From Subtercola vilae (GTDB taxonomy: Bacteria; Actinomycetota; Actinomycetes; Actinomycetales; Microbacteriaceae), in the NCBI RefSeq assembly GCF_004923255.1, contig NZ_QYRT01000021.1:1-60655 (forward strand): a DNA stretch of 60,655 nt, written 5' to 3'. The notes below the pieces were generated by a model that saw nothing but the letters and a program-made list of their open reading frames with translations, was not told the origin of the DNA and made no database searches. The translations under genes and the position numbers were made by a program. Positions 43,067-60,655 of the stretch are shown here, in pieces; the first letter of the stretch is position 1, and each line of letters opens with the position of its first letter.

Positions 43067-43100
43067 GCTTCCATCTTCATCGACGTCGGTTACCGAATTG

Positions 43101-43128
43101 TTTCAGGCGAAATAAATCTACGCCGAAA
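43101..43128. promoter_or_regulatory. Inverted repeat in the divergent dpp intergenic region
   Basis: TTTCaGGCG and CGCCGAAA arms separated by 11 AT-rich nt, between dppD (start 43066) and the dipeptidase gene (start 43216). It is a candidate site for the Lrp-type regulator encoded at the end of the forward operon. Confidence 0.4.
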
Positions 43129-43215
43129 CACGTCACGTGCATTGACTTTTGTGCCGATATTAAACAGATTGTGATGCAGAACGCCGAACTACCACCACCT
43201 ATAAGGAGATTTCGC

Positions 43216-46040: not shown

Positions 46041-46081
46041 CCCTCTCCACCGTTTCACTCACGTACGAAAGGGTCGCCCGC

Positions 46082-47044
46082 GTGTCTCGACTTTCATTCA
46101 TCCTCCGGCGCCTCGGCAGAAGTGTCTTCACGATCTGGTTCGCCGTGACCGTGACATTCCTTCTGTTGCGGCTGCTCCCCGGAGACCCGGCGCTGGCCAT
46201 CGCCAGCCCGAATATGACAGACGACGCGCGGGCGGCCCTGCTCACCCAGTACGGTCTCGACAAACCGCTGATCGCGCAGTACGGCATCTACCTGTTCGAA
46301 CTCGTGCGGGGCAACTTCGGCACCTCGTTCACCCAGTCCATTCCCGTGATGAACGTGCTGCTCCAGCGACTGCCGTGGACCCTGCTGCTGACCTTCACCG
46401 CCCTGCTGCTCACGGTGCTGGTCGGTATTCCCCTCGGCGTGCTCGCGGCCTCGAAGAAGGGCCGCTTCATCGACAAGTTCGTGCAGATCGTGGGGGTGAC
46501 GGGTCAGTCGATCTTCGTTCCGAGCATCGGCGTGCTGCTGCTGTTCGTCTTCGGGCTGAACCTGCGCTGGCTGCCCATCGGCGGCGCGTACGACACCAAT
46601 GCGTACGGGATGGCGTGGTACGGCAGCGTGATCAGTCATCTCATTCTGCCGGCCGTCTCACTCATGCTCATCCAGCTCGGATCGTACGTGCTCACCATGC
46701 GCTCGACCCTCATCGAGGCGCTCGGCGAAGACTACGTCACGCTCGCCAGGGCGAACGGGCTGCCCTACCGGCGTATTCTCTGGAAGCACGCGCTCAGGAA
46801 CGCTCTGCTGCCCACCACCACCCTCATCGGGCTGCAGCTCGGCTTTCTGGTGGGCGGCGCCGTGCTCACCGAGACCGTCTTCGCGTACCCCGGCATCGGC
46901 CGCGGAATCTACGAGGCGGTCACCCAGCTCGACTTCCCCGTTCTGCAGGGCGCCTTTCTGCTGCTCGCCGTCACCGTCGTGGTGGCGAACATGCTCACCG
47001 ACATCGTCTACGGCTTTCTCGACCCCCGGGTGAAAACATCATGA
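46082..47044 (+). CDS. dppB: ABC transporter permease (DppB type)
   Basis: A 320-residue permease with six membrane segments. N-terminal FILRRLGRSVFTIWFAVTVTFLLLRLLPGDP is the DppB/OppB block (positions 46100-46189). EALGEDYVTLARANGLPYRRILWKHALRNALLP holds the EAA loop that contacts the ATPase (near residue 235). The start is GTG at 46082 after GAAAGGG. Confidence 0.94.
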   Translation: MSRLSFILRRLGRSVFTIWFAVTVTFLLLRLLPGDPALAIASPNMTDDARAALLTQYGLDKPLIAQYGIYLFELVRGNFGTSFTQSIPVMNVLLQRLPWTLLLTFTALLLTVLVGIPLGVLAASKKGRFIDKFVQIVGVTGQSIFVPSIGVLLLFVFGLNLRWLPIGGAYDTNAYGMAWYGSVISHLILPAVSLMLIQLGSYVLTMRSTLIEALGEDYVTLARANGLPYRRILWKHALRNALLPTTTLIGLQLGFLVGGAVLTETVFAYPGIGRGIYEAVTQLDFPVLQGAFLLLAVTVVVANMLTDIVYGFLDPRVKTS

Positions 47045-47955
47045 CCTCTCTTGATCCTCTGCTGGCCGGCGCCACAACGGGCACGGCCGTACTCGCTGAA
47101 CCGATCGCCGACAGCAACGGCCGGGCCAGCCGGGCGACCTGGCGGGTGTTCCGGCGGGATCCGCTCGGGATGGGCTCGATGGTCATCCTCGCCCTGCTGG
47201 TACTCGTGGCTCTCGCCGCGCCCCTCATCGCCACGTACCCGGCGAGCTACGGCACCGACGTACTGAAAGCACCGAGCCTCACCAACCTGTTCGGTACCGA
47301 CTCCCTCGGCCGCGACGTGTTCGGCGAGGTGATCTGGGGCACTCAGCAGAGCCTTCTGGTCGCCGTCTCCGCCTCGTTCATCGCCATCGTGGTGGGCACC
47401 CTCGTGGCCGTTCTCGGCGCCTACTTTCGCCGACTCGACGGCTTCATCAGCATCATCGTCGACCTCACGCTCTCGCTGCCGGTGCTGCCACTGATGATTC
47501 TCATCGCGGCTCTCATCGGCCCCAGTACCACCACCATCATCGGTGTCGTCGCCGCGTTCTCCTGGCCAGAGGTCACCCGGCTCGTGCGGTCGCAGGCGCT
47601 CACTGTCGTGAATCTGCCCTATGTCGACGCGGCCCGGCTGATGACCACCTCGCCGTTCTGGATCATCTCCCGCCACATCGTTCCCGCGGTCGCCCCGGTG
47701 ATCGTGGTGTCGGTGGTGGTCACCGCTTCGCGCGCTGTGCTGTCGGCGGCCGGCCTCGCCTTTCTCGGGCTCGGCGACCCGACGGTGTGGTCGTGGGGGC
47801 GCATCCTCTACGAGGCACAGCAGTCGGGTGCCATGTCGAGCGCCTGGTGGCTCACCCTGATTCCCTCCATCGCCATTCTGCTGCTGGTGCTCTCGGCCAC
47901 GCTGCTCTCGATCGCGTACAACGACGCCCGCAACCCGCGCAACCGCGCCCGGTAG
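47041..47955 (+). CDS. dppC: ABC transporter permease (DppC type)
   Basis: A 304-residue permease. FRRDPLGMGSMVILALLVLVALAAPLIATYP is the typical DppC N-terminus, NLFGTDSLGRDVFGEVIWG is the conserved extracytoplasmic block and PYVDAARLMTTSPFWIISRHIVP is the EAA loop. It overlaps dppB by 4 nt (ATGA). With DppB it forms the channel for the family 5 binding protein. Confidence 0.94.
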   Translation: MTSLDPLLAGATTGTAVLAEPIADSNGRASRATWRVFRRDPLGMGSMVILALLVLVALAAPLIATYPASYGTDVLKAPSLTNLFGTDSLGRDVFGEVIWGTQQSLLVAVSASFIAIVVGTLVAVLGAYFRRLDGFISIIVDLTLSLPVLPLMILIAALIGPSTTTIIGVVAAFSWPEVTRLVRSQALTVVNLPYVDAARLMTTSPFWIISRHIVPAVAPVIVVSVVVTASRAVLSAAGLAFLGLGDPTVWSWGRILYEAQQSGAMSSAWWLTLIPSIAILLLVLSATLLSIAYNDARNPRNRAR

Positions 47956-47984
47956 AACCGCACGCGAGCAAGAAACGGATGCCC

Positions 47985-49196
47985 ATGACCCTCACCAACG
48001 CCTCCCCCAGCCGCACCCCCTTCGCTGCGCGCCTCGCCCCCGAGTTCTTCGACCGGGTGCAGGCGCGCCTGCTGCCGTCTCTCGAGGCCGAATCTCTCGA
48101 CGCCGTGCTCACCGACGACCCCGAAGACGTGGCGTATCTCACCGGTTTCTTCCACCACCCGTGCGAACGACCGGTGGCCGTGTGGCTGGCCGCCGACGGC
48201 GAGAGCATTCTCATGACACCGATGCTCGAACGGGAGAACGCAGAACGCCAGCAGGCACGGGCCGACCAGCTCGTCTCGTATGCCGAGTTTCCCGGCGTCG
48301 AGGCTCCGTTCACGTCGCTCGCCCGGGCCGTCGTCGGCGCTCCCCGCCGGGTCGGATTCAGTACCCACATGACCCACGAGCGCCTCACCGCGGCCATGCT
48401 GGCGCTGCCCGGCTGCGAGTTCGTGCCCACGACGCTCATCACCGTGGCGCGGTACGTGAAGTTCGACGAAGAGATCGCCCTGCACCGCGAGGCCGCCCGC
48501 ATCACCGACGTGATGCTCGAGGCCGGTGTCGAGCATCTGACGGAGGCGATCAGTCGCCGGGGCACCCTGCCGAGCGAGGCCGAACTCGCCGCCCACGTCA
48601 CCTCGACCGGAGTGAAGACGATGTACCGCGAACACGATGACGTGGTCGTCGTCTCTCCCCTCGCGGGCGGCCTCGTCTATGCCGGTGCGAACTCGGCGTT
48701 CCCGCACGGACTGCCTTCCGGCTACCGGCTGCGGCCCGGCGACACCTTCATGCTGTCGCTCGGCTGCGCGGTGGGCGGCCGCTTCGTCGAGGGTGAGCGC
48801 ACCTTCGTACTCGGAGAGCCGACGGATGACCAGAGGCGCTACCACGACACCGTTCGCCGGGCGCAGAAGATCGGCGGCGAGGCCATCAGGCCGGGGGCAC
48901 AGTGTCGCGCGGCCAACACGACCTGCCTGGCTGTCATCGAAGACGCGGGCCTCGGCCGATACCTGCGGCACCGCCAGGGGCACGGAATCGGCCTCGGCAT
49001 GCACGAGCCGCCGTGGCTCGAGGCCGGTGACGCGACCCTGCTCGAACCCGGCATGGTGGTGTCGAACGAACCCGGCATCTACATTCCGGGTCACGCCGGC
49101 TACCGCATCAGCGACAGCATGCTTGTCACCGAACACGGATCAGAGCCCCTCACCTCGTTCGGGCGCGACCTGGAGCACTGCACCATCGCCCTGTGA
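47985..49196 (+). CDS. M24 (pita-bread fold) hydrolase lacking most metal ligands, creatinase/ectoine hydrolase-like
   Basis: A 403-residue two-domain protein with a creatinase-like N-terminal domain (VLTDDPEDVAYLTGFFHHP) and a pita-bread domain. By eye alignment with aminopeptidase P, the first metal Asp is Ser (FMLSLGC), the second is Glu (FVEGERTF) and the last Glu is Ser (YRISDSMLVTE), while GHGIGLGMHE near residue 334 and SNEPGIYIP keep His and Glu. Loss of the dinuclear site is known for creatinase-like, metal-independent members, so a C-N hydrolase rather than an Xaa-Pro peptidase is likely. ATG choice: 47985; 47979 also possible. Confidence 0.8.
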   Translation: MTLTNASPSRTPFAARLAPEFFDRVQARLLPSLEAESLDAVLTDDPEDVAYLTGFFHHPCERPVAVWLAADGESILMTPMLERENAERQQARADQLVSYAEFPGVEAPFTSLARAVVGAPRRVGFSTHMTHERLTAAMLALPGCEFVPTTLITVARYVKFDEEIALHREAARITDVMLEAGVEHLTEAISRRGTLPSEAELAAHVTSTGVKTMYREHDDVVVVSPLAGGLVYAGANSAFPHGLPSGYRLRPGDTFMLSLGCAVGGRFVEGERTFVLGEPTDDQRRYHDTVRRAQKIGGEAIRPGAQCRAANTTCLAVIEDAGLGRYLRHRQGHGIGLGMHEPPWLEAGDATLLEPGMVVSNEPGIYIPGHAGYRISDSMLVTEHGSEPLTSFGRDLEHCTIAL

Positions 49197-49246
49197 CCAC
49201 CCGACCCACACGCTTCGCCTGCACCAAACGTAAGGAAAGAGCATCC

Positions 49247-50164
49247 ATGACCGACCAGAACGTCTCGCCCGAATTCGCGAAGGCGACCACCACTGCCCAG
49301 CGGGTTCTCATCAACGGCAACGAACTCGCCGTCGAGGTTCTCGGCCCTGAGGGCGCGCCCGTCATCATCACCCATCACGGAGCTCCCGGGCTCGGGTCGC
49401 GCGCAGAGCCCCGCGCCAGCTTCGGCCGGCTCGCCGACGAGTACCGGGTCGTGGTGTTCGATGCACGCGGGTCGGGCGAGAGCGAGGGCAGTGGCGAGTT
49501 CAGCCATGAACAGTGGGCGGCCGACATCGACGCGCTGCGGCAGTGGGTGGGCGCCGAGAAGATCGTGATGGCCGGCGGTTCGTACGGCGGTTTCATGTCG
49601 ATGGAGTACGCCGTGCGCTACCCCGAGCACGTTACAGCGGTGGTGCTGCGCGATACCTCGCCCGACAATGGCAACGCCCATCTGGCCCGCGAGAATGCCC
49701 TCGCCAGCGACCGGGTGAGCGTCGACATGGAGAAGTTCGACCGCATCGACGAGGGCCGCGTGCGAGACAACGACGACCTGTACGACTGCTGGCTCGAGAT
49801 TCTGCCGCTCTACGATTTCGCCTACGATCCGGCCGCCGCCGCTCGCAAAGCCGCTGCCACGCCATACCGCTACCGGGCCCACAACTATTCGTTCTCACAG
49901 AATCTGCCGAACTATGACCTCAAGCCGCAGTTGGCCGAACTCGACGTACCGCTGCTCATTACAGTAGGGAGACACGACTGGATCACTCCGGTGTCGTGCA
50001 GCGAGACCATCGCCGGGTTGGTGGCCGGTTCAGAATTGGTGGTGTTCGAGAAATCGGGGCATTCACCGCAGATCGAAGAGGTCGACGAGTGGACGCAGAC
50101 GGTTCGCGCATTCCTTCACCGAGTGGCGCCTCCGTCGGCGCTGAGAGCGCTGGCCGGAGAATAA
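49247..50164 (+). CDS. Alpha/beta hydrolase, proline iminopeptidase-like
   Basis: A 305-residue hydrolase. Oxyanion region THHGAPGLGSRAEPR, FDARGSGESEG near residue 68, nucleophile elbow GGSYGGFMSMEYA near 108, Asp in TVGRHDWITPVS and His in EKSGHSPQIEE near 283. The cap and GxSxGG sequence resemble proline iminopeptidases and related amidases/esterases. AAGGAAAGAG precedes the ATG. It is the last enzyme in the peptide-type operon, so it may finish hydrolysis of the imported compound (inference). Confidence 0.85.
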   Translation: MTDQNVSPEFAKATTTAQRVLINGNELAVEVLGPEGAPVIITHHGAPGLGSRAEPRASFGRLADEYRVVVFDARGSGESEGSGEFSHEQWAADIDALRQWVGAEKIVMAGGSYGGFMSMEYAVRYPEHVTAVVLRDTSPDNGNAHLARENALASDRVSVDMEKFDRIDEGRVRDNDDLYDCWLEILPLYDFAYDPAAAARKAAATPYRYRAHNYSFSQNLPNYDLKPQLAELDVPLLITVGRHDWITPVSCSETIAGLVAGSELVVFEKSGHSPQIEEVDEWTQTVRAFLHRVAPPSALRALAGE

Positions 50165-50166
50165 GC

Positions 50167-51240
50167 GTGCTCGACACGCTCGACGACCTCGATCGCCGCA
50201 TCGTGGTCGCCATGCAGAACGACGGCCGGGCCAGCTGGCGGGCCATTGCCGAAGTCGTCGATTCGTCGACCGCCACGGTGGCCCGGCGCGGCCAGCACCT
50301 CATCTCGGCGGGCGTCATCAAAGTGGCGGTAGTACCCTCGCTCGGTGCTACGGGCGATGTCTCGACCTTTCTCATTCGCATCACCTGCCAGCCCGGCATG
50401 CAGATTCTGGTGGCGGCCGAACTCGTGACCCATGCCGATGTGCGATTCGTCACGATTGTCACTGGCGGCTACGACATCTTCGCCGAGCTCGCGGTCTCAG
50501 GCGGGGCAACCCACTACCCGCAACTCGTCGAAGAACTCCAGTCGATCACCGGCATCGAACGCTGGCGCAGCGACCTCATCATGCACATCTACAAGGTGTC
50601 GTTCGACTGGGGGCGGCAGCTGTTCGCCGACACACTGCGGTTACCTGCCGTCGAGCATCCGGCAGACACCCGCACCGCAGGCACCCCAGGCACCCCCAGC
50701 ACCACCGACCTGCAGATCGTCGAGCCCACGCCCTGCAGCCCCACTCACTTCGACAGCGCCGACTGGAAGATTCTCGACCTGCTGCGCGACGACGGCCGGG
50801 TCACCTTTCAGGCCATCGCTGACAGCCTCGGCATGAACGAGTCGAGCGTTCGCCGCCGGTTCGAACGACTGAAGGCGGCCGAGTGCATCGACATTCTCAC
50901 GCTGGTACCGGCCCCGGCCCTGGGCATGGGCGCCGAGACGCTCATGACCGTGAAGGTCTCACCCGCGCGAATGGATGCCGTGGCCCGAGAACTCGCGCAG
51001 CACCCCGCCGTGCGCTACCTGGCTGCGACGCTCGACGAGAATGCCCTGTTCTGCGAAATCATCATGCCGTCGACCAACGACCTGTACACCTTCATCACCT
51101 CGACGCTCTCACAGCTCGACGGCGTGGAAGGGTGGACTGCCTCGATGGAACTGCTTTTTCTGAAGCGTGGGTTCATCGAGACGCCCTGGTGGCGCGGGCA
51201 GGTCTCGTACCCCGAGCTGGGCGCTGCAGCCAGCGCGTAG
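50167..51240 (+). CDS. Tandem-duplicated Lrp/AsnC family regulator
   Basis: A 357-residue protein made of two Lrp units. Unit 1 has its helix-turn-helix at residues ~5-50 (LDDLDRRIVVAMQNDGRASWRAIAEVV) and an effector (RAM) domain to ~155. A Thr/Pro linker (about 160-190) follows. Unit 2 has its helix-turn-helix at ~195-240 (SADWKILDLLRDDGRVTFQAIAD, ESSVRRRFERL) and a second effector domain ending near 345. Typical Lrp proteins have one unit of ~150 residues. The GTG at 50167 is 2 nt after the hydrolase gene, so it is in the operon it probably regulates. Confidence 0.88.
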   Translation: MLDTLDDLDRRIVVAMQNDGRASWRAIAEVVDSSTATVARRGQHLISAGVIKVAVVPSLGATGDVSTFLIRITCQPGMQILVAAELVTHADVRFVTIVTGGYDIFAELAVSGGATHYPQLVEELQSITGIERWRSDLIMHIYKVSFDWGRQLFADTLRLPAVEHPADTRTAGTPGTPSTTDLQIVEPTPCSPTHFDSADWKILDLLRDDGRVTFQAIADSLGMNESSVRRRFERLKAAECIDILTLVPAPALGMGAETLMTVKVSPARMDAVARELAQHPAVRYLAATLDENALFCEIIMPSTNDLYTFITSTLSQLDGVEGWTASMELLFLKRGFIETPWWRGQVSYPELGAAASA

Positions 51241-51258: not shown

Positions 51259-52266
51259 CTACGCCCCCTGCGCCGCGCTCCACGCCGCGATCTCGCCGCG
51301 CAACTCGGCCTTGCGTTCGTCGCTCGCGAATGACGCCGTGACCGAGTTACCGGCGAGCATCACCATGGTGGACAGGTCGAAGTCGAAGGCCTGCTGCACC
51401 GCCACATAGTTGTCGCCGATGTACCCACCGAAGTACGACGGGTCGTCGCTGTTCACGGTGACGAGGAGCCCCGCGTCGAGCATGCGGGGCAGCGGATGCT
51501 CGACCATCGTGTCGACTCCCCGCAGCCGCACAGTCGAGAGCGGGCACACTGTCAGCGGAATCTGGCGTTCCCGCAGCGCCTCGACGAGCGCCGGGTCTTC
51601 GAGGCTCCGAATGCCGTGGTCGAGCCGCTCGATGCCGAGCACCTCGAGGGCCGGCCACACGTACTCGGGGCCGCCTTCTTCGCCGGCGTGCGCCACCGCG
51701 TGAAGGCCCAGCTCGCGCGCCCGGCGGTACACCCGTTCGAACAGCTCGGGCGGGTAGCCGACCTCGGTGGAGTCGAGCCCCACCCCGACGAGGTCACCCG
51801 CGCGGTGGGCCACCGACTCGAGAGTCTCGAGGGCCTTCTCGACGGGAAGATCGCGCAAGAAGCAGAGAATCAGCCCGCCCGTGATGCCCCACTCGAGATT
51901 CGCCTCGGCGAGCGCGTCACGCAGCCCGTCGATGACGGTGTCGACCGCCACCCCGCGGCTCGTGTGCGCCTGCGGGTCGAAGAACATCTCGACGTGCCGC
52001 ACCCCCTGCGCGTGGGCTCTGGCGAGGTAGGCCCGTGCGAGGTCGGCGAAGTCGGCCCTCGTTCGCAGCACGATGCTGCACGCGAAGTACAGGTCGAGAA
52101 ACGACTGCAGATCGGTGAACTCGAGCCGCTCACGAAGCTCGTCGACACTGTCGAACGGAAGCGAGATGCCGTTGCGCTCGGCGAGCGCGAACACCATCTC
52201 GGGTTCGAGGGTGCCTTCGATGTGCAGGTGCAGCTCGGTTTTGGGCAGGGCGAGAAGGTCGGGCAT
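51259..52266 (-). CDS. Adenosine deaminase superfamily protein, adenine deaminase-like
   Basis: A 335-residue zinc aminohydrolase. Zinc and catalytic residues: H-x-H in PKTELHLHIEG near residue 12, His and Glu in VAHAGEEGGPEYVWPA near 190, His in RLDHGIRSLED and Asp-Asp in VNSDDPSYFGGYIGDN near 275. The HLHIEGTLEPE start, EVGYPPELF and PEYVWPALEVL blocks resemble the Pseudomonas PA0148/yeast Aah1 group, which deaminates adenine rather than adenosine (knowledge). N6-substituted adenine deaminases are a close alternative. An in-frame GTG at 52272 is an alternative start. Last gene of the TetR-led operon. Confidence 0.85.
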   Translation of the reverse strand: MPDLLALPKTELHLHIEGTLEPEMVFALAERNGISLPFDSVDELRERLEFTDLQSFLDLYFACSIVLRTRADFADLARAYLARAHAQGVRHVEMFFDPQAHTSRGVAVDTVIDGLRDALAEANLEWGITGGLILCFLRDLPVEKALETLESVAHRAGDLVGVGLDSTEVGYPPELFERVYRRARELGLHAVAHAGEEGGPEYVWPALEVLGIERLDHGIRSLEDPALVEALRERQIPLTVCPLSTVRLRGVDTMVEHPLPRMLDAGLLVTVNSDDPSYFGGYIGDNYVAVQQAFDFDLSTMVMLAGNSVTASFASDERKAELRGEIAAWSAAQGA

Positions 52267-52276
52267 GGTCACAGCT

Positions 52277-53701
52277 TCAGTCTTTCATGCTGGTCGGGGC
52301 AGGGGCTGGTGCTGCGGCTTGTGCAGCGAACACGCCGCCGGGTTCATCCACGCCGGCCAGGTACGCCGACCGTCGTTCGAACAGCCCCGGCACCACGGCC
52401 CGGGCTCGGTCGATGACGTCTCGCAGGTCTGCCGAGAGTAGCTCGCCTCCCTCGACGACCACCCGGCCGTCGACCATCGTGAGGTCGACATCGCTGCCGC
52501 GAACGGCGTGCACCAGGTTGTGGTGCAGGTTCGCATAGATGCCGTCACCGATCAGCGGAGTCATGCGCGGGGTATCGGTGCGCACCGCGATGAGGTCTGC
52601 CTTCTTGCCCGGTTCGAGCGATCCGATCTCGTGCGAGAGGCCGAGGGCGCGGGCACCACCGGTGGTGGCCATCTGCAGCACGGCCCAGCTGTCCATCGCC
52701 GCAGCATCCATCTTTCGCAGCTTGCCGAGCAGCGACGCCACCTTCATCTCCTCGAACATGTCGAGGTTGTTGTTCTCCTTCTCGCCGTCGGTACCGATGC
52801 CCACGGCGACACCGGCCGCCAGGTACTCCGCCACCGGCGCCATGCCGCTCGCCAGCTTCATGTTGCTCACCGGGTTGTGCGACACACCGACACCGCGGCG
52901 CGCGATCAGCTCGATCTCACTGTCGTCGAGCCACACCGCGTGCGCCAGCATGGTCTTCGGCACATCGAAGAAGCCGAGCTTCTCGAGGGCGAACATGGGC
53001 CTCGACCCATACCGACTGTCGAACTCAGCGAGTTCGATCTCCGACTCACTGCAGTGCGTGTAGAACCCGGTGTTGTATTTCTTCGCCAGAGCGATGGCCC
53101 GCTGCTGCCCGGCCTCGTCGGCGTAGAACAGGTGCTCGAGCCCGACCCACGGGTAGATGCGGCCGCCGGCGCCTCCCGACCACTCGTCGAGCATCGCCTC
53201 GTTGTCGTCGAGCGTGTCGAAGTAGTCGTGTTGCGGATGCTCGCCCACATAGTTCACCGTCACCAACCGGTTTCCGAGCACCTCGGCCGCCCGCGCGCTG
53301 CCCTGCATGTAGCGCCACATGTCGACCACGGTGGTGGTGCCAGAGAGCAGCCCTTCGGCGTAGCAGAGCCACGATGCAGCCTCGGCTTCGGCCGGTTGCA
53401 GCACGCGGTGCATCGGGTCGATGTGCAGGCGCAGCCACTCCCACACGGGCAGGTGCTCTGCGGTACCCCGCAGAACCCCGGAGTGGTGGTGCGAGTTCAC
53501 CAGGCCGGGCATGATGAGCCGGTCATCCAGCCTCGTCACCTCGGCGCCGGGGTACTGGGCCATCAGATCGGATGCCGGGCCCACCGCCTCGATGACCGAA
53601 CCACGTACGAGCACCGCGCCCTCGGCGATGATCTCGTTTGAGGCGTTCATCGTCACCACGAAGTCGGCGACCAGCAGGCGGTCGCCGGGCTGGCTGATCA
53701 C
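52277..53701 (-). CDS. Amidohydrolase of the TrzN/AtzA/MtaD (COG0402-like) family
   Basis: A 474-residue metal-dependent deaminase or chlorohydrolase-type enzyme. Ligands: H-x-H in LVNSHHHSGVLRG near residue 71, His in YTHCSESEIEL near 220, His in LAHAVWLDD near 250 and Asp in GIGTDGEKENNNLDMFEEM near 300. The last block is very close to methylthioadenosine/S-adenosylhomocysteine deaminases, but guanine, 8-oxoguanine and triazine enzymes share the frame, so substrate is open. The GTG start overlaps the monooxygenase stop (GTGA). Confidence 0.87.
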   Translation of the reverse strand: MISQPGDRLLVADFVVTMNASNEIIAEGAVLVRGSVIEAVGPASDLMAQYPGAEVTRLDDRLIMPGLVNSHHHSGVLRGTAEHLPVWEWLRLHIDPMHRVLQPAEAEAASWLCYAEGLLSGTTTVVDMWRYMQGSARAAEVLGNRLVTVNYVGEHPQHDYFDTLDDNEAMLDEWSGGAGGRIYPWVGLEHLFYADEAGQQRAIALAKKYNTGFYTHCSESEIELAEFDSRYGSRPMFALEKLGFFDVPKTMLAHAVWLDDSEIELIARRGVGVSHNPVSNMKLASGMAPVAEYLAAGVAVGIGTDGEKENNNLDMFEEMKVASLLGKLRKMDAAAMDSWAVLQMATTGGARALGLSHEIGSLEPGKKADLIAVRTDTPRMTPLIGDGIYANLHHNLVHAVRGSDVDLTMVDGRVVVEGGELLSADLRDVIDRARAVVPGLFERRSAYLAGVDEPGGVFAAQAAAPAPAPTSMKD

Positions 53702-55095
53702 TCGGCGCTCGTCACGCTGAACTTCGTACCGGGGTGGTCGGCCGACAGGTGCGCGCCCGGCCGACCCAGAACCTGTTCGCGCAGCGTTCCCGTAGCGGCC
53801 GCTGCCGGCATGCGACCGCGCCGACGGAGTTCGGGCACGACGAGCCGCGCGAAGTCTTCGAGGTCGGCGGGCGCGAAGATGGGTTCGAGCAGAAACCCGT
53901 CGAGCCCGGTCTCGTCGACGAGGCGCTCGAGTTCGTCGGCCACCTCGATGGGGTCGCCCACGAGCTGCAGGCCACGCGTGCCGCGCCCGCGCAGCTGGTC
54001 GAGAATCTCACGCACGGTGAGAGCGGGTTCGCCGTTCTTGCCCATGAAGCGGTCGATGTTGCTCTGGCCCATCTGCCCGATGGGCCCGCCGTCGTCGTGC
54101 AGCTGGGTGAGGTCACGGTCGGGGTCGAGCGCGAGCAGGTCGATTCCGGTGTTGCCGGCATAGAGCACGGCCACGACCTCATCGGTCTGCAGATCGTCGA
54201 ACTCTTTGCGCTGGGCGGCGGCGAGTTCGCTGGTCTCGGCAACCGTCACGGTGAGGCCCACCATGATCTTCACCGACTCGGGGTCGCGCCCAAGGGCGGC
54301 CGCCTGGGCACGAATGTCGGCGACGTTCGCCTTCGTGGCCGCGACCGTCGTGCCCTGCACGAACACGCACTCGGCGTTGCGGGCAGCGTACGCCCGGCCC
54401 CTGGCCGAGGTGCCGGCCTGAAACAGAACGGGGGTGCGCTGGGGCGACGGGTCGACCGTGAAGTACCCCGTCGAACGAAAGTGCTGGCCCTCGAACGTGA
54501 TGCGGTGCAGCTTCGAGCGATCGACCAGCACCTGGCTCTCTTTGTCGCCGATGAAGGCGTCGTCTTCCCACGAGCCCTCCCAGAGCGTCATGGCAAGGTC
54601 GACGTACTCGTCAGCCTGGTCGTAACGGTCGTCGTGCGCCTTCATCGTGCTGTGGCCGAAGAGCTCGGCCACCGTGTTCGCCGAGGCACCCGTGACAATG
54701 TTCCAGCCAATGCGGCCGCCGGTGAGGTGGTCGAGGGTGGCGAAGCGCCGGGCGGTCTGCACCGGATGATCGAGGCCGGTCGACGACGTCACCACGAAGC
54801 CGAGGCGTTCGGTCGCCTGCGCCAGCACGGGAATCAGTAGCGCCGGGTCGATGCCGGGAAAGTTGATGCCGCCGCGGGCGGCAAGCTCCGGCAGGTCACC
54901 GTCGATCGACGGAAAACCGAAGCCGTCGGCGAAGAACAGAAAGTCGAAACCCGCCTGATCGAGCAGCTGGGCCATGTGGATCCAGAAATCGAGTTCGTGG
55001 TACCGCAGCGAATCACTTCGCGGGTGCGGCCAGCTGAGGGTGCCGCCGACCTGAGGGCCAGCGACTTCGAAAACACCTAAGTGGATCTGTTTCAT
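53698..55095 (-). CDS. FMN-dependent LLM monooxygenase, NtaA/SnaA/DmoA type
   Basis: A 465-residue flavin monooxygenase with the long NtaA-type insertions. RIGWNIVTGASANTVAELFGH near residue 127, AHDDRYDQADEYVDL, SPQRTPVLFQAGTSARGRAYAARNAECVF (54360-54446, reverse) and the DETGLDGFLLEP block near residue 390 are typical. These enzymes use FMNH2 from a separate reductase and O2 to attack C-N or C-S bonds. No flavin reductase gene lies in the window. GGGAG precedes the ATG. It lies between the TetR gene and the amidohydrolase gene in one operon. Confidence 0.9.
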   Translation of the reverse strand: MKQIHLGVFEVAGPQVGGTLSWPHPRSDSLRYHELDFWIHMAQLLDQAGFDFLFFADGFGFPSIDGDLPELAARGGINFPGIDPALLIPVLAQATERLGFVVTSSTGLDHPVQTARRFATLDHLTGGRIGWNIVTGASANTVAELFGHSTMKAHDDRYDQADEYVDLAMTLWEGSWEDDAFIGDKESQVLVDRSKLHRITFEGQHFRSTGYFTVDPSPQRTPVLFQAGTSARGRAYAARNAECVFVQGTTVAATKANVADIRAQAAALGRDPESVKIMVGLTVTVAETSELAAAQRKEFDDLQTDEVVAVLYAGNTGIDLLALDPDRDLTQLHDDGGPIGQMGQSNIDRFMGKNGEPALTVREILDQLRGRGTRGLQLVGDPIEVADELERLVDETGLDGFLLEPIFAPADLEDFARLVVPELRRRGRMPAAAATGTLREQVLGRPGAHLSADHPGTKFSVTSAE

Positions 55096-55177
55096 GCTCC
55101 CAGTGAACCAAATGGTTCACGGAGCCGCAGGCGACGAAACGAAACTTTTACATGCACGGGCGCGCCGAAACAGATTC

Positions 55178-55780
55178 TTAATATGCCGCCGGCCTCAGGC
55201 GCCCGACCAGGGCCGCGGTCGACTCCCGTGCCGCCCGGTCGACAAGCGCGGCGTCGCCCACGCTGAGCAAGGTGGCCTGCAGCCCCCGCCAGAGCGCAAC
55301 GATCTCGTGCGCGAAGACGAGCGAGCGCTCGGGGTCGACCCCTTCGTGCTCGAACGCCTTCGCCACGTGGGTGACCCACTCGGTACCGATGTCGCCCAGA
55401 AGCTCGGTGAACTGCTGGCGACGAAAGCCGGCCTGGCCGAAGATCTCGAAGAACAGTCGATGAAACGGCAGATTCGCAGGGTCAGAAATCGTGCACCACG
55501 CATCGGTCAGACGCTGCTCGAGGGCAATACTGGTGTCGTCGATGGCCGGAATGATGGCACGCATCGTGGGAAAGCGCCGTTCAGCGCCCTCGAGCGCTGC
55601 GACGATCACATTCTCGCGAGTGCCGAAGTAGTACAGCAGCATGCGGTTGTTCGAGCCCGCAGCCGCGGCGAGCTCGCGCAAGGTGAGTTGGCTGATCCCA
55701 TTCTCGAGAACGTGGTCGACCACCCTCACGAGCAGGGCCTCCCGACGGGCCGCATGGCTCGGCTGCGATGGGTCAGTCAT
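55178..55780 (-). CDS. TetR/AcrR family transcriptional regulator
   Basis: A 200-residue regulator. Helix-turn-helix at residues ~12-55: LLVRVVDHVLENGISQLTLRELAAAAGSNNRMLLYYFGTRENVI (55620-55751, reverse), with the YYFGTRENV recognition helix end. The C-terminal ligand domain is unassigned. The ATG at 55780 was preferred over one two codons earlier (55786) because TAACGT lies 7 nt before it. It heads the reverse operon and is divergent from the importer operon, so it probably controls both. Confidence 0.9.
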   Translation of the reverse strand: MTDPSQPSHAARREALLVRVVDHVLENGISQLTLRELAAAAGSNNRMLLYYFGTRENVIVAALEGAERRFPTMRAIIPAIDDTSIALEQRLTDAWCTISDPANLPFHRLFFEIFGQAGFRRQQFTELLGDIGTEWVTHVAKAFEHEGVDPERSLVFAHEIVALWRGLQATLLSVGDAALVDRAARESTAALVGRLRPAAY

Positions 55781-55787
55781 ACCCATG

Positions 55788-55793
55788 ACGTTA
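55788..55793 (-). promoter_or_regulatory. Leaderless -10 element (TAACGT) for the TetR gene
   Basis: On the reverse strand TAACGT is followed by 7 nt and the ATG at 55780. Confidence 0.5.
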
Positions 55794-55823
55794 CTGATTC
55801 GTGCGCCCGGCGACCGAAGGCAA

Positions 55824-55888
55824 CGCCGCCGAAATGCGGCGGTAACATTCGCGAAGTAGCGTTTCGCTTCAGTAGTGAAGTCGACTTC
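55824..55888. promoter_or_regulatory. Candidate TetR operators in the divergent region
   Basis: CGCCGC-6 nt-GCGGCG (55824-55841) and a perfect 12-bp palindrome GAAGTCGACTTC (55877-55888) preceded by related GAAGTAGCG/GCTTC half-sites (55853-55870). They lie between the TetR gene and the importer operon. Confidence 0.5.
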
Positions 55889-55947
55889 TCACAGCGTTTG
55901 GGGTCGACACACTGACATTGCACGCCACCGCAGACTTGGGAGTTCAC

Positions 55948-57090
55948 ATGAATGCCTTCACCACCCCGCCCATCCTGAACAAACCGTTCGACAGACGCGG
56001 CTTTCTGCGCATCGGCGGCCTGAGTGCGCTGGCCATCGGCGGCACGGCCGTTCTGGCTGCCTGCAGCACCGGTTCTTCGACCTCAGGTTCGACCACCGCT
56101 GCCAGCGCCGGCGCCACCGCCGCAGCCGGAAGTCTCGGCACCATCGCTCTGCAGCTCTCGTGGATCAAGAACATCGAGTTCGGCGGCGAGTACTATGCCA
56201 CCGAGAAGGGCTACTACACCGGTGCAGGATTCGCCGGCGTGACCCTGCTCGCGGGCGGCGGCCAGACCGGCGCAGAAGAGACCCTGCTCTCTGGCCAGTC
56301 GCTCGTCGGCCTCTCTGGCCCCTCGATCACCGGCCCCTCGGTTCTGCAGGGCGCACCGCTGAAGATCATCGGCTCGACGTACCAGAAGAACCCGTTCTGC
56401 CTGATGTCTCTGGCCGAGAAGACCCCCATCCGCACCATCGCCGACCTCAAGGGCAAGAAGATCGGCGTTCAGTCGGGCGGCAACCAGATCACGTTCGAGG
56501 GCTTCTTGAAGGCCAACGGCATGACCACGGCCGACGTGACGCTCGTCACCACGCAGTACGACATCGCTCCGCTCGAGACCGGCGCCTACGACGCCCACAT
56601 GTCGTACATCACGAATGAGCCCATTCTGGCGAAGAAAGACGGCTTCACGCCCGTCATTCTGGGCTTCGCCGACAACGGCCTGCCGTTCGTCGCCGAGACG
56701 TTCACTGTGACGCAAGATTCCATCGACACAAAGCGCGACCTTCTCAAGGCATTCCTCGTCGCCGAGATCAAGGGCTGGAGCGACGCAGTGAAAGACCCCG
56801 CCGGTAACGCTGCGTACGCTGTGAACACGTACGGAAAAGACCAGAAGCTCGACCTCGACGAGCAGACTCAAGAGGCCACCGCCCAGAACGGACTGATTCT
56901 GACGGCCGATGTCAACAAGAACGGTCTGTTCACCATGACCGACGAGCTGATCGCTGAGAACATCACGTCGCTCGCCGCCATGGGCACGGTCATCACCGCA
57001 GACCAGCTCTTCGACATGAGCCTGATCAAAGAGGTCTACGCCGAGCACCCCGAGCTCATCCAGTCCTTCACCATCCCCACCGCGTCTTAG
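55948..57090 (+). CDS. ABC transporter substrate-binding Tat lipoprotein, NMT1/ThiY-SsuA type
   Basis: A 380-residue binding protein. The signal has a twin-arginine motif (DRRGFLRIGG, residues 15-24) and a lipobox (VLAAC near residue 41), so it is folded before export and lipidated. The body is NMT1-like: IALQLSWIKNIEFGGEYYATEKGYY, ADLKGKKIGVQSGGNQ, and AHMSYITNEP. Relatives bind pyrimidine precursors, riboflavin, nitrate, sulfonates or purine-like molecules. TTGGGAG precedes the ATG. First gene of the importer operon. Confidence 0.9.
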   Translation: MNAFTTPPILNKPFDRRGFLRIGGLSALAIGGTAVLAACSTGSSTSGSTTAASAGATAAAGSLGTIALQLSWIKNIEFGGEYYATEKGYYTGAGFAGVTLLAGGGQTGAEETLLSGQSLVGLSGPSITGPSVLQGAPLKIIGSTYQKNPFCLMSLAEKTPIRTIADLKGKKIGVQSGGNQITFEGFLKANGMTTADVTLVTTQYDIAPLETGAYDAHMSYITNEPILAKKDGFTPVILGFADNGLPFVAETFTVTQDSIDTKRDLLKAFLVAEIKGWSDAVKDPAGNAAYAVNTYGKDQKLDLDEQTQEATAQNGLILTADVNKNGLFTMTDELIAENITSLAAMGTVITADQLFDMSLIKEVYAEHPELIQSFTIPTAS

Positions 57091-57135
57091 TCGCCGCGCC
57101 TTCTGTCGGTCTTCGATAAGAGAAACTAGAACACC

Positions 57136-57978
57136 ATGGTCACTTCCCCTTCGAGCCTGCTCACGGCTGCCACCAGCGACCCGGCCGGAAGGCCGGATCT
57201 CGCCACGGGCATCAACATCCAAGGCCTGACCAAGACGTTCCAGCTGGGCCGCAAATCGGTTCAGGCCCTGTCGGAGATCAACCTGGGCACGAAGAAAGAC
57301 TCGTTCCTCACGCTTCTCGGCCCGTCAGGGTGCGGAAAATCAACGATTCTCCGCATCCTGGCCGGGCTCGAGAAGCCGAGTTCGGGCGTTGTCGTGGTGA
57401 ACGGTAAGTCGGCAGCCGAGATTCAGCGCGGCCACGAGACCGGCATCGCGTTTCAAGACTCAGCTCTTCTGCCGTGGCGCTCGGTCGCCAAGAACATTCG
57501 CCTGCCGCTCGAAGTGGCCGGCATCACCCCCGCACCCGGTCTCATCGACGACCTGATCAAGCTCGTCGGGCTGACCGGCTTCGAGAACGCCAAGCCCGCC
57601 CAGCTCTCCGGCGGCATGCGCCAGCGTGTCTCGATCGCCCGCTGCCTCGCAGTGCAACCCACCATCATGCTGCTCGACGAACCGTTCGGAGCCCTCGACG
57701 ATATGACGCGCCAGCGCATGAACGTCGAGCTGCTGCGCATCTGGGGCGAGAAGCCTGCCACGACACTCATGGTCACCCACGGCATCAGCGAGGCTGTCTT
57801 TCTCTCTGACGTGGTCGCCGTGATGAGTTCGCGGCCCGGCCGTATCGCCCAGGTCGTCGAGATCGACCTGCCGCGCCCGCGCCTGCCCGAGCTCACCCGC
57901 ACCCCCGAATTCCACGCCTACGTCGACCAGATCTCAGAGATTCTGTTCGGTGCCCACGGAACGGTCGTCGATGACTGA
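57136..57978 (+). CDS. ABC transporter ATP-binding protein (SsuB/TauB/ThiZ type)
   Basis: A 280-residue ATPase. Walker [10 protein letters not shown] near residue 63, Q-loop [16 protein letters not shown] near 105, signature [16 protein letters not shown], Walker [18 protein letters not shown]-loop [14 protein letters not shown]. These match the nitrate/sulfonate/taurine importer ATPases. It overlaps the first permease by 8 nt. Confidence 0.93.
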
Positions 57979-58870
57979 CGTACAGCACGACATCGAGATC
58001 GAACTCGGTGAGAGCATCGCGATCGACGCAGAAACCGCGCGCGGCCCCGCACGGCGGTCGTTCCTCGGATCGATGCAGTCGGTTCGGTCGATGCCGCCGT
58101 GGGTGGGCGCCGTCGTCGGCGTGATCGTCATCCTGTTGGCCTGGCAGTTCATCTCGGTGACCTTCTTCTCGCTCACCCAGTCGGTTCCGCAGCCGTTCAA
58201 CGTGTTCGTGCAACTCTTCACCGACCTGACCGACGGCGTGTACTGGAACGCCATCGCCCAGACCGGCATGTCGGCGCTCTGGGGCTTTCTCTGGGGCAAC
58301 CTGATCGCCTTCTTCCTGGCGTTCATCGTGCTGCTGATTCCGTGGCTCGAGGGCCTCTCGACGCAGCTGGCTGTCGTCTGCTCGTGCATCCCGCTCACCG
58401 CCATCGCGCCGATCGTCACGCTGCTCTCCCCCGCGGGCGGGCGCTCGACCTCGATCTTCCTCGCGGCACTCAGCGTGATCTTCACCGCCGTGATCGGCAC
58501 GATCCTGGGGCTGAACGCGGCAAGCGAGACACAGCTCGATGTCATCAAGGCATACGGCGGCTCTCGCCTCACCCAGCTCTTCAAGGTGCGCCTCATCGCT
58601 GCCGTGCCGAGCATTCTGGCGGCTCTCAAGCTGGCCGCACCGGCCGCGTTTCTCGGTGCCGTGCTCGGGGAGTACTTTCTCGTCGGAGTCGATTCGGGTA
58701 TCGGTATCCTCCTGCTGGCCGCCCAGGCCACGGCCGCCTCGGTCAAACTCTGGGCAATCGCACTGATCTGCGGCGGCGTCGCTGGTCTGGCCTACTTCGT
58801 CATCGGCCGCATCGGCCGCCTGGCGACACCATGGTCGGCCGGAGACGCACGCGCAGGGGAAGGCTTCTGA
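57971..58870 (+). CDS. ABC transporter permease 1 (SsuC type)
   Basis: A 299-residue permease with about six membrane segments after a 40-residue acidic N-terminus. The EAA loop [31 protein letters not shown] (near residue 180) contacts the ATPase. It resembles SsuC/TauC/ThiX proteins. The ATG at 57971 lies inside the end of the ATPase gene; the stop overlaps the second permease as TGATG. Confidence 0.92.
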
Positions 58871-59763
58871 TGGCCACCGCAGCACCCACCCACGCCCCCA
58901 CGCTCTCGCGCGCCGTGATCAGCCCCCAGACGGCCTCGACGCTGCGCTATGTGGGGCGGCGGCTCGGTACCACCGTGCTGACGATTGTGATCAGCGCGGT
59001 GATCCTCGGCCTGCTCTGGAACCTCGCTATCGTTCTTCTGCACGCCAACCCGTTCATCGCCAAGACCCCGGCGGATGTCTTCAACTACCTCTTCGTCGAC
59101 TCGGCCAAGAGCAAGACCACGGCGGCCGAGAATCGTGATGTGCTCGCCGGCCTGCTCGGCGTGACACTCGGCCACGCCGCCATCGGCTTTGTGTTCGGGG
59201 TGGGCGCGTCAGTCGTCATCTCGGTGCTGTTCACGCTGATTCGGCCGATCGAGTTCATGTTCATGCCGCTTGCGATGCTGCTCCGCACGGTTCCGCTGCT
59301 CGCGATGGCGCCCGTCATCTTTCTGGTCTTCGGCAACGGCCTCGTCACGGCAGCGTTCATCGGCGGTGTCGTGGTGTTCTTCCCGCTGCTCGTGAACCTG
59401 ACGCTGGGCTTTCGATCGGTGAGCTCGCAGTCGGTCGACCTCATCAAGGTCTATGGCGGCAGCCGCTGGACCATCATGCGCAAGGTCGCCATTCCCACCG
59501 CCCTGCCCTACTTCTTCGCCTCGATGCGCATCGCCGTTCCCGGCGCCATCACCGGGGCCATGCTCTACGAGTGGCTGTTCACCTACGAAGGCCTCGGCGC
59601 TGCCATCACCACCGCGAAGTCGCAGTCGCAGTACGGGCAGATCTGGGCCATCGTGGTGCTCATCACACTCGTCTCGATTCTGCTGTACACGGTAGCCACA
59701 TTCGTCGAGACGGCCGTGCTGGCCAAGTGGGGCCCCAACGCGGGCAAGTCGACCGGCAAGTAG
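58870..59763 (+). CDS. ABC transporter permease 2 (SsuC type)
   Basis: A 297-residue permease, homologous to but clearly different from permease 1. EAA loop VDLIKVYGGSRWTIMRKVAIPTALPYFFASMRI (near residue 195), with TVPLLAMAPVIFLVFGNG and LYEWLFTYEGLGAAI blocks. The presence of two distinct permeases suggests a heterodimeric channel, as in some hydroxymethylpyrimidine/riboflavin-type importers (knowledge). Confidence 0.92.
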   Translation: MATAAPTHAPTLSRAVISPQTASTLRYVGRRLGTTVLTIVISAVILGLLWNLAIVLLHANPFIAKTPADVFNYLFVDSAKSKTTAAENRDVLAGLLGVTLGHAAIGFVFGVGASVVISVLFTLIRPIEFMFMPLAMLLRTVPLLAMAPVIFLVFGNGLVTAAFIGGVVVFFPLLVNLTLGFRSVSSQSVDLIKVYGGSRWTIMRKVAIPTALPYFFASMRIAVPGAITGAMLYEWLFTYEGLGAAITTAKSQSQYGQIWAIVVLITLVSILLYTVATFVETAVLAKWGPNAGKSTGK

Positions 59764-59804
59764 AGACCGCCGCATGGCATCCGTTCGACCACCGAAAGAG
59801 CACC

Positions 59805-60590
59805 ATGACCACCATCATTGACAAGTCTCAGGCGGGCGTGAACGCGCGCCAGTACCACATCGGTATCGCTCCCGGCGAGGTGGGCACCATTGCCCTGCTC
59901 CCCGGCGATCCGTTTCGGGTGCCGCTGATCGCCGAGTTTCTGACCGACGTCACCGAGGTCGCCCACAACCGTGAGCACCGAACGATGACCGGCTGGTACA
60001 AGGGCAAGTTCATCACTGCTACCTCGACGGGCATGGGATGCCCGTCGACGGCCATTGCGGTCGAAGAACTCGCCCGGGTGGGCGTCACCTCCTTCATTCG
60101 CGTGGGCAGTTCGGCCGCCCTGCAGCCCGGCATCAACCCGGGCGACCTGCTGGTGAGCGAGGGCACACTCCGCAACGACGGAACAACCGCGGCCTACGCG
60201 CACCCCGGTTTTCCGGCCGTGCCCGACCTCGAACTGACCATCGCGCTCAAGAACGCCGCCGATGCCCTGGCTGGCGCGGGCTCGAACGGGTCGGCCGCCG
60301 ACTTCGCCGTGCTCTCGGGCATCAATTGCTCAGACGACGCCTTCTACGCCGAGACGCCCGAATGGATCAGCCAGCTCAACTCGCTCGGCATTCTGAACGT
60401 CGAGATGGAGAGCTCGGCCCTGTTCGTGGTGGCGCGACTTCGAAAGCTGCGAGCCGGCATGATCTGCGCGTGCTCGTCGAACCTCGTCGACGGAACCAGC
60501 CTGTACGACCACGACGCCGGCAAGCTGATGACCGGTTGGCAGAAGAGCATCGAGGCCGCCCTCGACGCCGCGGTGGCGCTCGACCTCTGA
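59805..60590 (+). CDS. Nucleoside phosphorylase-I family protein (uridine/purine phosphorylase-like)
   Basis: A 261-residue hexameric-type phosphorylase that splits nucleosides with phosphate into base and pentose-1-phosphate. GDPFRVPLIAEFL near residue 32 is the phosphate-binding start. STGMGCPSTAIAVEELARVGV, RVGSSAALQPG and ILNVEMESSALFVVA (ribose-binding Glu-Met-Glu near 200) follow. By eye it lacks the Ser-Asp-His purine signature (ACSSNLVDG instead) and the uracil-specific Gln-x-Arg, so base specificity is open. Its position in the importer operon points to catabolism of an imported nucleoside. GAAAGAG precedes the ATG. Confidence 0.88.
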   Translation: MTTIIDKSQAGVNARQYHIGIAPGEVGTIALLPGDPFRVPLIAEFLTDVTEVAHNREHRTMTGWYKGKFITATSTGMGCPSTAIAVEELARVGVTSFIRVGSSAALQPGINPGDLLVSEGTLRNDGTTAAYAHPGFPAVPDLELTIALKNAADALAGAGSNGSAADFAVLSGINCSDDAFYAETPEWISQLNSLGILNVEMESSALFVVARLRKLRAGMICACSSNLVDGTSLYDHDAGKLMTGWQKSIEAALDAAVALDL

Positions 60591-60655
60591 GTCGGTTCGT
60601 TTCTCCACTCGCACCGCACCGCCCCTCCCCGCCTTCCCTCGCCCCGCCTTCCCCT

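Follow-up and report, generated by a model that had tools for sequence, protein, structure and literature searches.

The 60,655-nt contig NZ_QYRT01000021.1 of Subtercola vilae (the whole contig is the window analysed here, also labelled C18) ends in a locus of two divergent gene arms that probably serves the inducible uptake and catabolism of a substituted adenine-type nucleoside or base, presumably with oxidative removal of the substituent. The minus-strand arm holds a TetR-family regulator, a luciferase-like monooxygenase (LLM1), an amidohydrolase (AHY) and a member of the adenosine-deaminase family (ADD). The plus-strand arm encodes the binding protein, the ATPase and the two permeases of an ABC importer, followed by a PNP_UDP_1 nucleoside phosphorylase. 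This reading is supported by a twelve-gene order found in five other Subtercola genomes, by a nucleoside hydrolase and a second adenosine-deaminase-like gene (ADD2) that belong to that order, and by the nearest solved relatives of the encoded proteins. It draws further support from contig C93 of the same genome, which carries xanthine-dehydrogenase (XDH)-type genes, XdhC and allantoinase, from the adenine/adenosine-deaminase-family genes in 48 of 80 AHY loci, and from two of these loci, L071 and L079, described below.

Profile searches with Pfam and NCBIfam confirmed nine open reading frames (ORFs) at the positions and with the families that an earlier note, made from the letters of the window without database searches, had assigned to them: A_deaminase, Amidohydro_1, Bac_luciferase, TetR_N, NMT1, ABC_tran, BPD_transp_1 (twice) and PNP_UDP_1. 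The tight overlaps described in the same note are present between LLM1 and AHY (4 nt, GTGA, 53698-53701), between the ATPase and permease 1 (8 nt, provided that permease 1 starts at 57971) and between the two permeases (1 nt, TGATG, 58868-58872), whereas AHY and ADD do not overlap and are separated by a gap of 4 nt. The nine genes are not the entire locus, since the window ends 65 bases past the phosphorylase and the operon is cut by the contig end. With a relative's nucleoside hydrolase as query, the orthologue in the own genome was located at the very start of contig C38 (G000:C38:37-999, 77% to the protein of L009, in which family PF01156 was assigned). The gene after it is the second adenosine-deaminase-like gene (73% to ADD2 of L010), the continuation stretch being L183:1-2024. 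From the operon order in the relatives and these C38 genes, the locus comprises at least eleven genes in the S. vilae strain and twelve in the relatives.

In the five other Subtercola genomes the reverse arm reads ADD, AHY, Cupin_5, LLM, TetR, and the divergent arm binding protein, ATPase, permease, permease, phosphorylase, nucleoside hydrolase, ADD2. Genes in the relatives were called by ORF length and codon-position GC, a procedure that initially missed the phosphorylase of L175 and L176. The Cupin_5 gene (PF06172; e.g. L009:9444-9968) separates LLM1 from AHY in all five relatives; the window does not have it, and there the two genes overlap each other. In L009/L177 and L010/L179, each pair of labels denoting one and the same contig, the reverse arm is interrupted between AHY and ADD by an ORF of 406-408 aa on the opposite strand. 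Because the gene order recurs in five other genomes, the locus is more than a chance assembly. AHY itself was found in six of the 12 Subtercola genomes searched, the own genome included (E ≤ 1e-100). As to conservation beyond close relatives, on which the earlier note had laid weight, the exact gene set was found in Subtercola only, but LLM1, a second deaminase, an ABC importer and AHY are also seen in Microbacterium indicum (L016) and partly in Nesterenkonia (L027).

The enzymes of the locus point to purines. ADD scores above the adenosine deaminase cut-offs (NF006850, 474.1 versus 419; TIGR01430, 361 versus 216.55), and its nearest solved chains are 3rys (404 bits) and 3ou8 (344 bits), which we take to be adenine deaminases; enzymes of this kind reportedly also accept N6-methyladenine. 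Presumably of the cog1816 type, ADD is on these similarities likely to be an adenine deaminase. The phosphorylase lies below the cut-offs of the uridine phosphorylase model TIGR01718 (195.2 versus 280.3) and of the DeoD models (124.8 versus 230 and 109.1 versus 232.25). In the alignment it has SDDAFYAETPE-type and SSN/VSN stretches in common with the Thermus thermophilus purine nucleoside phosphorylase 1odi and is without the GQERYDTF stretch of uridine phosphorylases. We take the GQER stretch to be uracil-binding and the other two to be base-binding stretches of the purine type. By motif the protein thus appears purine-type rather than uridine-type, and the Asn of its SSN stretch presumably suggests 6-oxopurines. 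The purine nucleoside route put forward in the earlier note has gained strength from these stretches, from the nearness of ADD to 3rys and 3ou8, and from the nucleoside hydrolase and the second adenosine-deaminase-like gene on C38.

LLM1 passes the NtaA/DmoA model TIGR03860 (450.8 bits against a cut-off of 279.7). Its nearest solved chain is the riboflavin lyase RcaE (5w48; 369 bits, 42% identity over 442 aa); DmoA (40%) and LadA (39%) follow at a short distance. In the tree, LLM1 falls in a clade of eight rows (support 98/99) with rows from Microbacterium indicum and Nesterenkonia, while LLM2, a second such enzyme of the own genome, falls in a clade of nine rows (100/99). RcaE stands outside both clades as the next branch out, in a group of 19 rows whose support (89/85) is below the starred level; its row is flagged as long. 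RcaE belongs to the rca cluster of Microbacterium maritypicum G10, which has a riboflavin kinase, a flavin reductase and a ribokinase, and none of these three was found among the nine window genes or the three further syntenic genes. RcaE is thus of the same family as LLM1 and its nearest solved relative, but LLM1 sits in a separate clade, and its neighbours in the window are purine enzymes. RcaE is described as FMN-dependent and as cleaving an N-alkyl group off a ring (PMC12746152; this and the other PMC papers below are cited from partial texts).

AHY combines a complete set of presumed active-site residues with a distinct pocket signature. Its best NCBIfam model is 5'-deoxyadenosine deaminase, and its best solved chain is a methylthioadenosine (MTA)/S-adenosylhomocysteine (SAH) deaminase. 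It scores 325 bits to NF005557, missing the cut-off of 522, lies far below that of the MTA/SAH deaminase model NF012037 (190.8 versus 779 bits), and is also below that of the 8-oxoguanine deaminase model NF006055 (222.8 versus 532), which a different gene of the own genome, on contig C60, passes with 610.2. The residues to which we assign metal-binding and catalytic roles are complete: H71 is present in 80, and H73, H216, E219, H254 and D305 in all, of 81 aligned sequences. P-M-H98-R99 and E189-H190 are invariant (81/81) at positions where 4f0r, an MTA deaminase, has Pro-Thr-Glu and His-Ala, so that the presumed pocket signature, PMHR / EH / GEKENNN, is unlike that enzyme. The relatives were gathered by two peptide patterns, one of which was DGEKENN, and the invariance of the third element is therefore partly built in, while that of PMHR and EH is not. 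The glutamate of 4f0r, which we assume to be conserved and ribose-binding, is replaced by His98 in all 81 AHYs; together with the NF012037 score, this weakens the methylthioadenosine-like nucleosides that the earlier note had listed as candidate substrates. In the AlphaFold model (mean pLDDT 80.4) the loops presumed to line the pocket, 77-98, 279-286 and 306-311, have values below 50, and for that reason no substrate was read from it. The cytokinin deaminase Patl2390, the N6-methyladenine deaminase Bh0637 and the N2,N2-dimethylguanine hydrolase NdmH act on substituted purines (PMC13054789, PMC13296781) and share the amidohydrolase superfamily with AHY, to which we liken them by their descriptions and not by sequence; pa8-OxoGuaD clusters with NdmH (PMC13054789). 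The Patl2390 type, with a cog1816 group 3 sequence and activity on isopentenyladenine, would be a class for ADD, ADD2 or ADD31. An Arad3529-type pterin deaminase was also considered for AHY and lowered by description only, the relative in PMC9513972 having 399 aa and cytosine-deaminase-like kin.

The binding protein carries a Tat motif (RRGFLRI) and a lipobox (LAAC). NMT1 importers often carry sulfonate or nitrate. At this locus the binding protein is far below the cut-off of the SsuA model TIGR01728 (45.6 versus 163.5 bits), as is the NrtB model below its own, and the two solved relatives of the binding protein at E ≤ 0.001 are 4nmy and 3ix1, the latter a formylaminopyrimidine binder. Sulfonate uptake was considered and lowered on the SsuA score and on these relatives, which include a pyrimidine binder and not sulfonate binders.

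The sequence TGAACCAAATGGTTCA or its reverse complement lies between the TetR gene and LLM1 in all six Subtercola loci compared, its distance to the LLM1 start being 8 bp in four of them and 59-61 bp in the other two. Allowing up to two mismatches, a scan of the 4.04-Mb genome finds this one site (reversed control: none). In the window the site matches both strands, and none of 100 shuffles reached as many matches at up to three mismatches. For the LLM1-AHY-ADD arm this palindrome is the obvious operator candidate. Before the importer arm only a partly conserved GC-rich hairpin was seen, CCGCCG-aaatg-CGGCGG, which is exact in the window, L009 and L176 and altered in L175 and L178 (L010 left out). 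The earlier note had placed the whole divergent locus under TetR control. Since the palindrome is limited to the LLM1 side and absent between the divergent arms, such control is proposed here for the LLM1-AHY-ADD arm and not for the locus as a whole.

We infer the reactions, their order and the role of TetR as follows. The Tat-exported lipoprotein and the ABC importer would take up the substrate, and the purine-type phosphorylase and the C38 nucleoside hydrolase would cleave off the sugar. The two adenosine-deaminase-family proteins and AHY would remove the 6-amino or substituted amino group, and LLM1, with reduced FMN and oxygen, would remove the extra group. The simplest chemistry for LLM1 would be to oxidise the carbon adjoining the nitrogen, upon which an aldehyde leaves, as in riboflavin lyase. 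ADD would deaminate the freed adenine to hypoxanthine, which could be oxidised by an XDH-type enzyme encoded elsewhere in the genome. TetR would repress the LLM1-AHY-ADD arm at the palindrome until the substrate is present. Since adenine is the substrate of ADD-type enzymes and the nearest solved relative of LLM1 removes a chain linked through N, an N6-alkyl or N6-methyl substituent is the first guess, to which we give about half of the weight of this reading. Cytokinins and RNA-derived bases are both possible substrates.

Several observations weigh against the catabolism of a substituted adenine compound as proposed here. No enzyme matched a characterised close orthologue, and AHY and the phosphorylase miss every curated cut-off listed. 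The NMT1 family of the binding protein gives no substrate. The reactions catalysed within the LLM family are many, and LLM1 gives similar scores with riboflavin lyase (344 bits), with LadA, which hydroxylates alkanes (311 bits), and with DmoA, which acts on dimethyl sulfide (318 bits). Several deaminases together leave the order of steps ambiguous, six of the 12 Subtercola genomes are without AHY at the threshold used, and no copy of the palindrome was found before the importer arm in the window or in the whole-genome scan.

The positions of all features are collected in Table 1. A separate set of genes precedes the locus at 41041-51240 of the window: dipeptide ABC genes, M19 and M24 peptidases, an alpha/beta hydrolase and a double Lrp/AsnC regulator.

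Table 1. Features of the divergent locus of Subtercola vilae, in positions of the window (NZ_QYRT01000021.1).
Feature	Position	Strand	Remarks
ADD, adenosine-deaminase family, likely adenine deaminase	51259..52272	-	PF00962; NF006850 and TIGR01430 above cut-offs
AHY, amidohydrolase of the MTA/5'-deoxyadenosine/8-oxoguanine deaminase superfamily, distinct conserved subfamily	52277..53701	-	PF01979
LLM1, luciferase-like monooxygenase, NtaA/DmoA FMN-dependent family	53698..55095	-	TIGR03860 above cut-off
Palindrome TGAACCAAATGGTTCA, candidate TetR operator	55104..55119		8 bp from LLM1 start codon
TetR-family regulator	55178..55786	-	PF00440, 24.9 bits versus cut-off 24; 64-69% in five relatives
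Hairpin CCGCCG-aaatg-CGGCGG	55826..55842		Between TetR and importer arm; conserved in part
SBP, NMT1/THI5-like binding protein, Tat lipoprotein	55948..57090	+	PF09084
ABC ATPase	57136..57978	+	PF00005
Permease 1	57971..58870	+	PF00528; ORF open from 57950, start at 57971 fits relative L010
Permease 2	58870..59763	+	PF00528
UPP, nucleoside phosphorylase, purine-type by motif	59805..60590	+	PF01048
Contig end cutting the operon	60591..60655		Continuation is contig C38

Scanning bacterial genomes with an AHY alignment yielded 328 relatives, and the best 80 of these were surveyed; gene counts per locus rest on thresholds of our own choosing, and the 10-kb flanks and contig ends hide genes in some loci. 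These AHY-related loci hold adenine-deaminase, 8-oxoguanine-deaminase and XDH family genes, the first two below curated cut-offs; a neighbouring amidohydrolase, AH21, reaches 528.3 against the cut-off of 532 of the 8-oxoguanine deaminase model. In L071 and L079, genes for a binding protein and an ATPase come after AHY, and further along stands a nucleoside-hydrolase-like gene (34-36% to the Pfam-confirmed one of L009). The first of these loci, L071:7587-16948 (Kaistia dalseonensis), has a P450 and a ferredoxin upstream of AHY, and a BMP importer and the nucleoside-hydrolase-like gene downstream; the P450 is possibly a third oxygenase type for AHY loci.

A two-subunit thiamine diphosphate (ThDP) enzyme of the sulfopyruvate-decarboxylase type, below curated cut-offs, lies near AHY in 58 of the 80 loci (10 of 27 actinobacterial ones by record title, 48 of 53 others). 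A GMC oxidoreductase accompanies it in 56 of these 58 loci, an XDH-type gene is present in 51 and an aldehyde dehydrogenase (ALDH) gene in 46; 39 have a gene of the adenine/adenosine-deaminase family. Every one of the 58 carries exactly one kind of oxygenase, either an LLM (7) or Rieske components (51), both together in none. Two families that to our knowledge are not homologous are thus found in the same place of one conserved neighbourhood. The loci L028-L088, mostly from Rhizobiales (e.g. L106:750-18606), present a highly conserved run of a BMP importer, a Rieske protein, a GST, often an adenine-deaminase-like gene, a LysR gene, the two-subunit ThDP enzyme, GMC, AHY, a VanA-type oxygenase without Rieske domain, XDH-type genes and ALDH. 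No function was found described for this run in the literature consulted, available to us in part. For the one example of each oxygenase type that was compared, the nearest solved chains were SxtT, SxtDIOX and NdmA/NdmB. With their Rieske protein, GST and VanA-type oxygenase without Rieske domain, the Rhizobiales AHY loci resemble NdmC/D/E of the NdmABCDE caffeine N-demethylases, the window carrying an LLM instead (PMC4408171). Homologues of ndmCDE without known function are mainly reported from Sinorhizobium and Mesorhizobium in the same source. No NdmD-type reductase was present among the 17 annotated features of L106, the one locus searched for it.

The ThDP module is also present in the own genome: contig C11, at about 16.35-22.6 kb (L103/L104), carries LLM2, ThDP alpha, ThDP beta, GMC and ALDH in one direction. 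The ThDP gene was found in three of the 12 Subtercola genomes, all of them among the six AHY carriers, which argues against a tight link between AHY and ThDP. When 394 genomes of the class were searched with the beta subunit, 12 matches were obtained, of which two (80% and 90%) are close, the own genome included, and the five neighbourhoods of weak beta matches that were mapped (L107-L111) do not look like lum clusters. Seven neighbourhoods of amidohydrolase matches (L150-L156) added little. In one of the weak beta neighbourhoods, L108:9198-11931, ThDP beta, ThDP alpha and an adjoining GMC gene are 29-34% to those of the own genome, the trio thus recurring outside purine-like loci. The closest ThDP pair seen outside AHY loci (40-44% to that of the own genome) is at L166:3207-4303, next to XDH-type genes.

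In the lumichrome pathway the two-subunit ThDP enzyme LumK/L decarboxylates a ring carboxylate, LumT and LumN oxidise CH2OH to CHO and COOH, and a xanthine-oxidase-type enzyme is also present (PMC12746152). The lum cluster of Nocardioides simplex has in common with the wider AHY module a ThDP pair, a xanthine-oxidase-type enzyme, CH2OH/CHO oxidases, an amidohydrolase and an importer, whereas the window locus is without a ThDP, GMC, ALDH or XDH gene. Sequences were compared with L169, a cluster taken as lum by gene content and not that of N. simplex itself. L169:2690-11416 encodes dihydropyrimidinase-like, isochorismatase-like and XDH-type proteins, a ThDP pair and an amidohydrolase, then permeases, an order that fits LumH-LumM with one mismatch, the LumH-like ORF having 497 aa versus 80 kDa in PMC12746152. 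The LumM-like protein of L169 shares 27% identity with AHY, and AH21 scores about as high against it (112 bits, against 109 for AHY). The ThDP pair of the AHY loci matches that of L169 at 35-38% over 95-111 residues (alpha) and 41-43% over 47-73 residues (beta), and is closer to L166 (over nearly the whole length), L167 and L168. LumH-like sequences occur in three of the 80 AHY loci (L027, L035, L071) and LumI-like ones in a single locus (L028), at 28-34% identity. On the low identity, the closer ThDP pairs of L166-L168 and the rarity of LumH- and LumI-like sequences, the AHY loci were not assigned to the lum pathway; an identification of AHY with LumM was considered and lowered. PMC12746152 is a chemical precedent for ring-carboxylate decarboxylation and not evidence of orthology.

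From the survey a broader proposal may be formulated, though we think it unlikely: AHY would be an undescribed, probably isofunctional enzyme for one modified purine. Its loci in Actinobacteria and Rhizobiales would represent a new pathway with oxygenation by an LLM or NdmCDE-like Rieske system, GMC/ALDH oxidation and ThDP decarboxylation of a purine carboxylate, and the window would be its nucleoside-uptake/deamination arm with a specialised LLM1.

Demethylation of a C-methyl or C-alkyl purine, which we judge quite unlikely, would have LLM2 or the Rieske oxygenase turn a ring methyl (e.g. of 2-methyladenine) to CH2OH, GMC and ALDH carry it to COOH, the ThDP enzyme decarboxylate and XDH follow, again with the window as uptake/deamination arm. 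The enzymes for each of these steps are frequent in the AHY loci, as counted above, the lumichrome pathway is the precedent for the chemistry, and C11 holds LLM2, both ThDP subunits, GMC and ALDH in one run. However, three of the six window-type Subtercola genomes are without a ThDP match (one is only 88% complete) and the window locus seems independent of the module; moreover the LLM1 and LLM2 clades differ, the C11 locus has no copy of the palindrome in the genome scan, and the ThDP pair shows no special closeness to that of L169.

A quite improbable explanation is the catabolism of a pterin-, folate- or flavin-type heterocycle, in which AHY would be a pterin-type or LumM-type deaminase and the LLM a side-chain-cleaving oxygenase. 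Riboflavin lyase is nearest to both LLM1 and LLM2, the XDH, GMC, ALDH and ring decarboxylase genes would fit a 6-substituted pterin, and pterin deaminases are known amidohydrolases (PMC9513972). This leaves the phosphorylase, the nucleoside hydrolase and the adenine/adenosine deaminases without an obvious role, and neither the distance of AHY from the LumM-like protein nor the few LumH- and LumI-like sequences speak for it.

That the locus is an ordinary one for scavenging mixed purines (adenine, adenosine, inosine), and that LLM1 serves some unrelated substrate, a sulfonate for instance, is in our opinion very doubtful: ADD, ADD2, the phosphorylase and the hydrolase require no special substrate and importers of this family often serve sulfonate or nitrate, but LLM1 is kept in the operon in six of six genomes and overlaps AHY in the window, the AHY pocket signature is invariant and unlike 4f0r, and the SsuA and NrtB models are missed by far. 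Salvage of 5'-deoxyadenosine, MTA or SAH, the LLM cleaving the C-S bond of the sugar part, would suit the best model and best solved chain of AHY and the nearness of LLM1 to DmoA, which acts on dimethyl sulfide, and is highly unlikely in view of the wide margin by which AHY misses both cut-offs and of the His at the glutamate position of 4f0r.

Catabolism of a substituted adenine-type compound therefore remains the reading that we prefer for the window. Each of the families at the locus is already known, and we regard their combination as a variant of nucleoside-catabolism loci; no description of this gene set was found in the literature searched, which took in few subscription papers. The bacterial recycling of modified purines from RNA turnover and plant hormones is poorly charted; with few genes and one candidate operator, the locus lends itself to testing. 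How modified nucleic acids are degraded and their modified bases demethylated is not established for Escherichia coli (PMC13296781). The wider AHY module may bear on the ndmCDE homologues (PMC4408171), which the Rhizobiales genes resemble in layout. If the broader proposal for AHY is true, the pathway would demethylate a purine oxidatively at carbon, with RNA-derived 2-methyladenine as a possible substrate, and could explain what the ndmCDE-like genes of rhizobia do.

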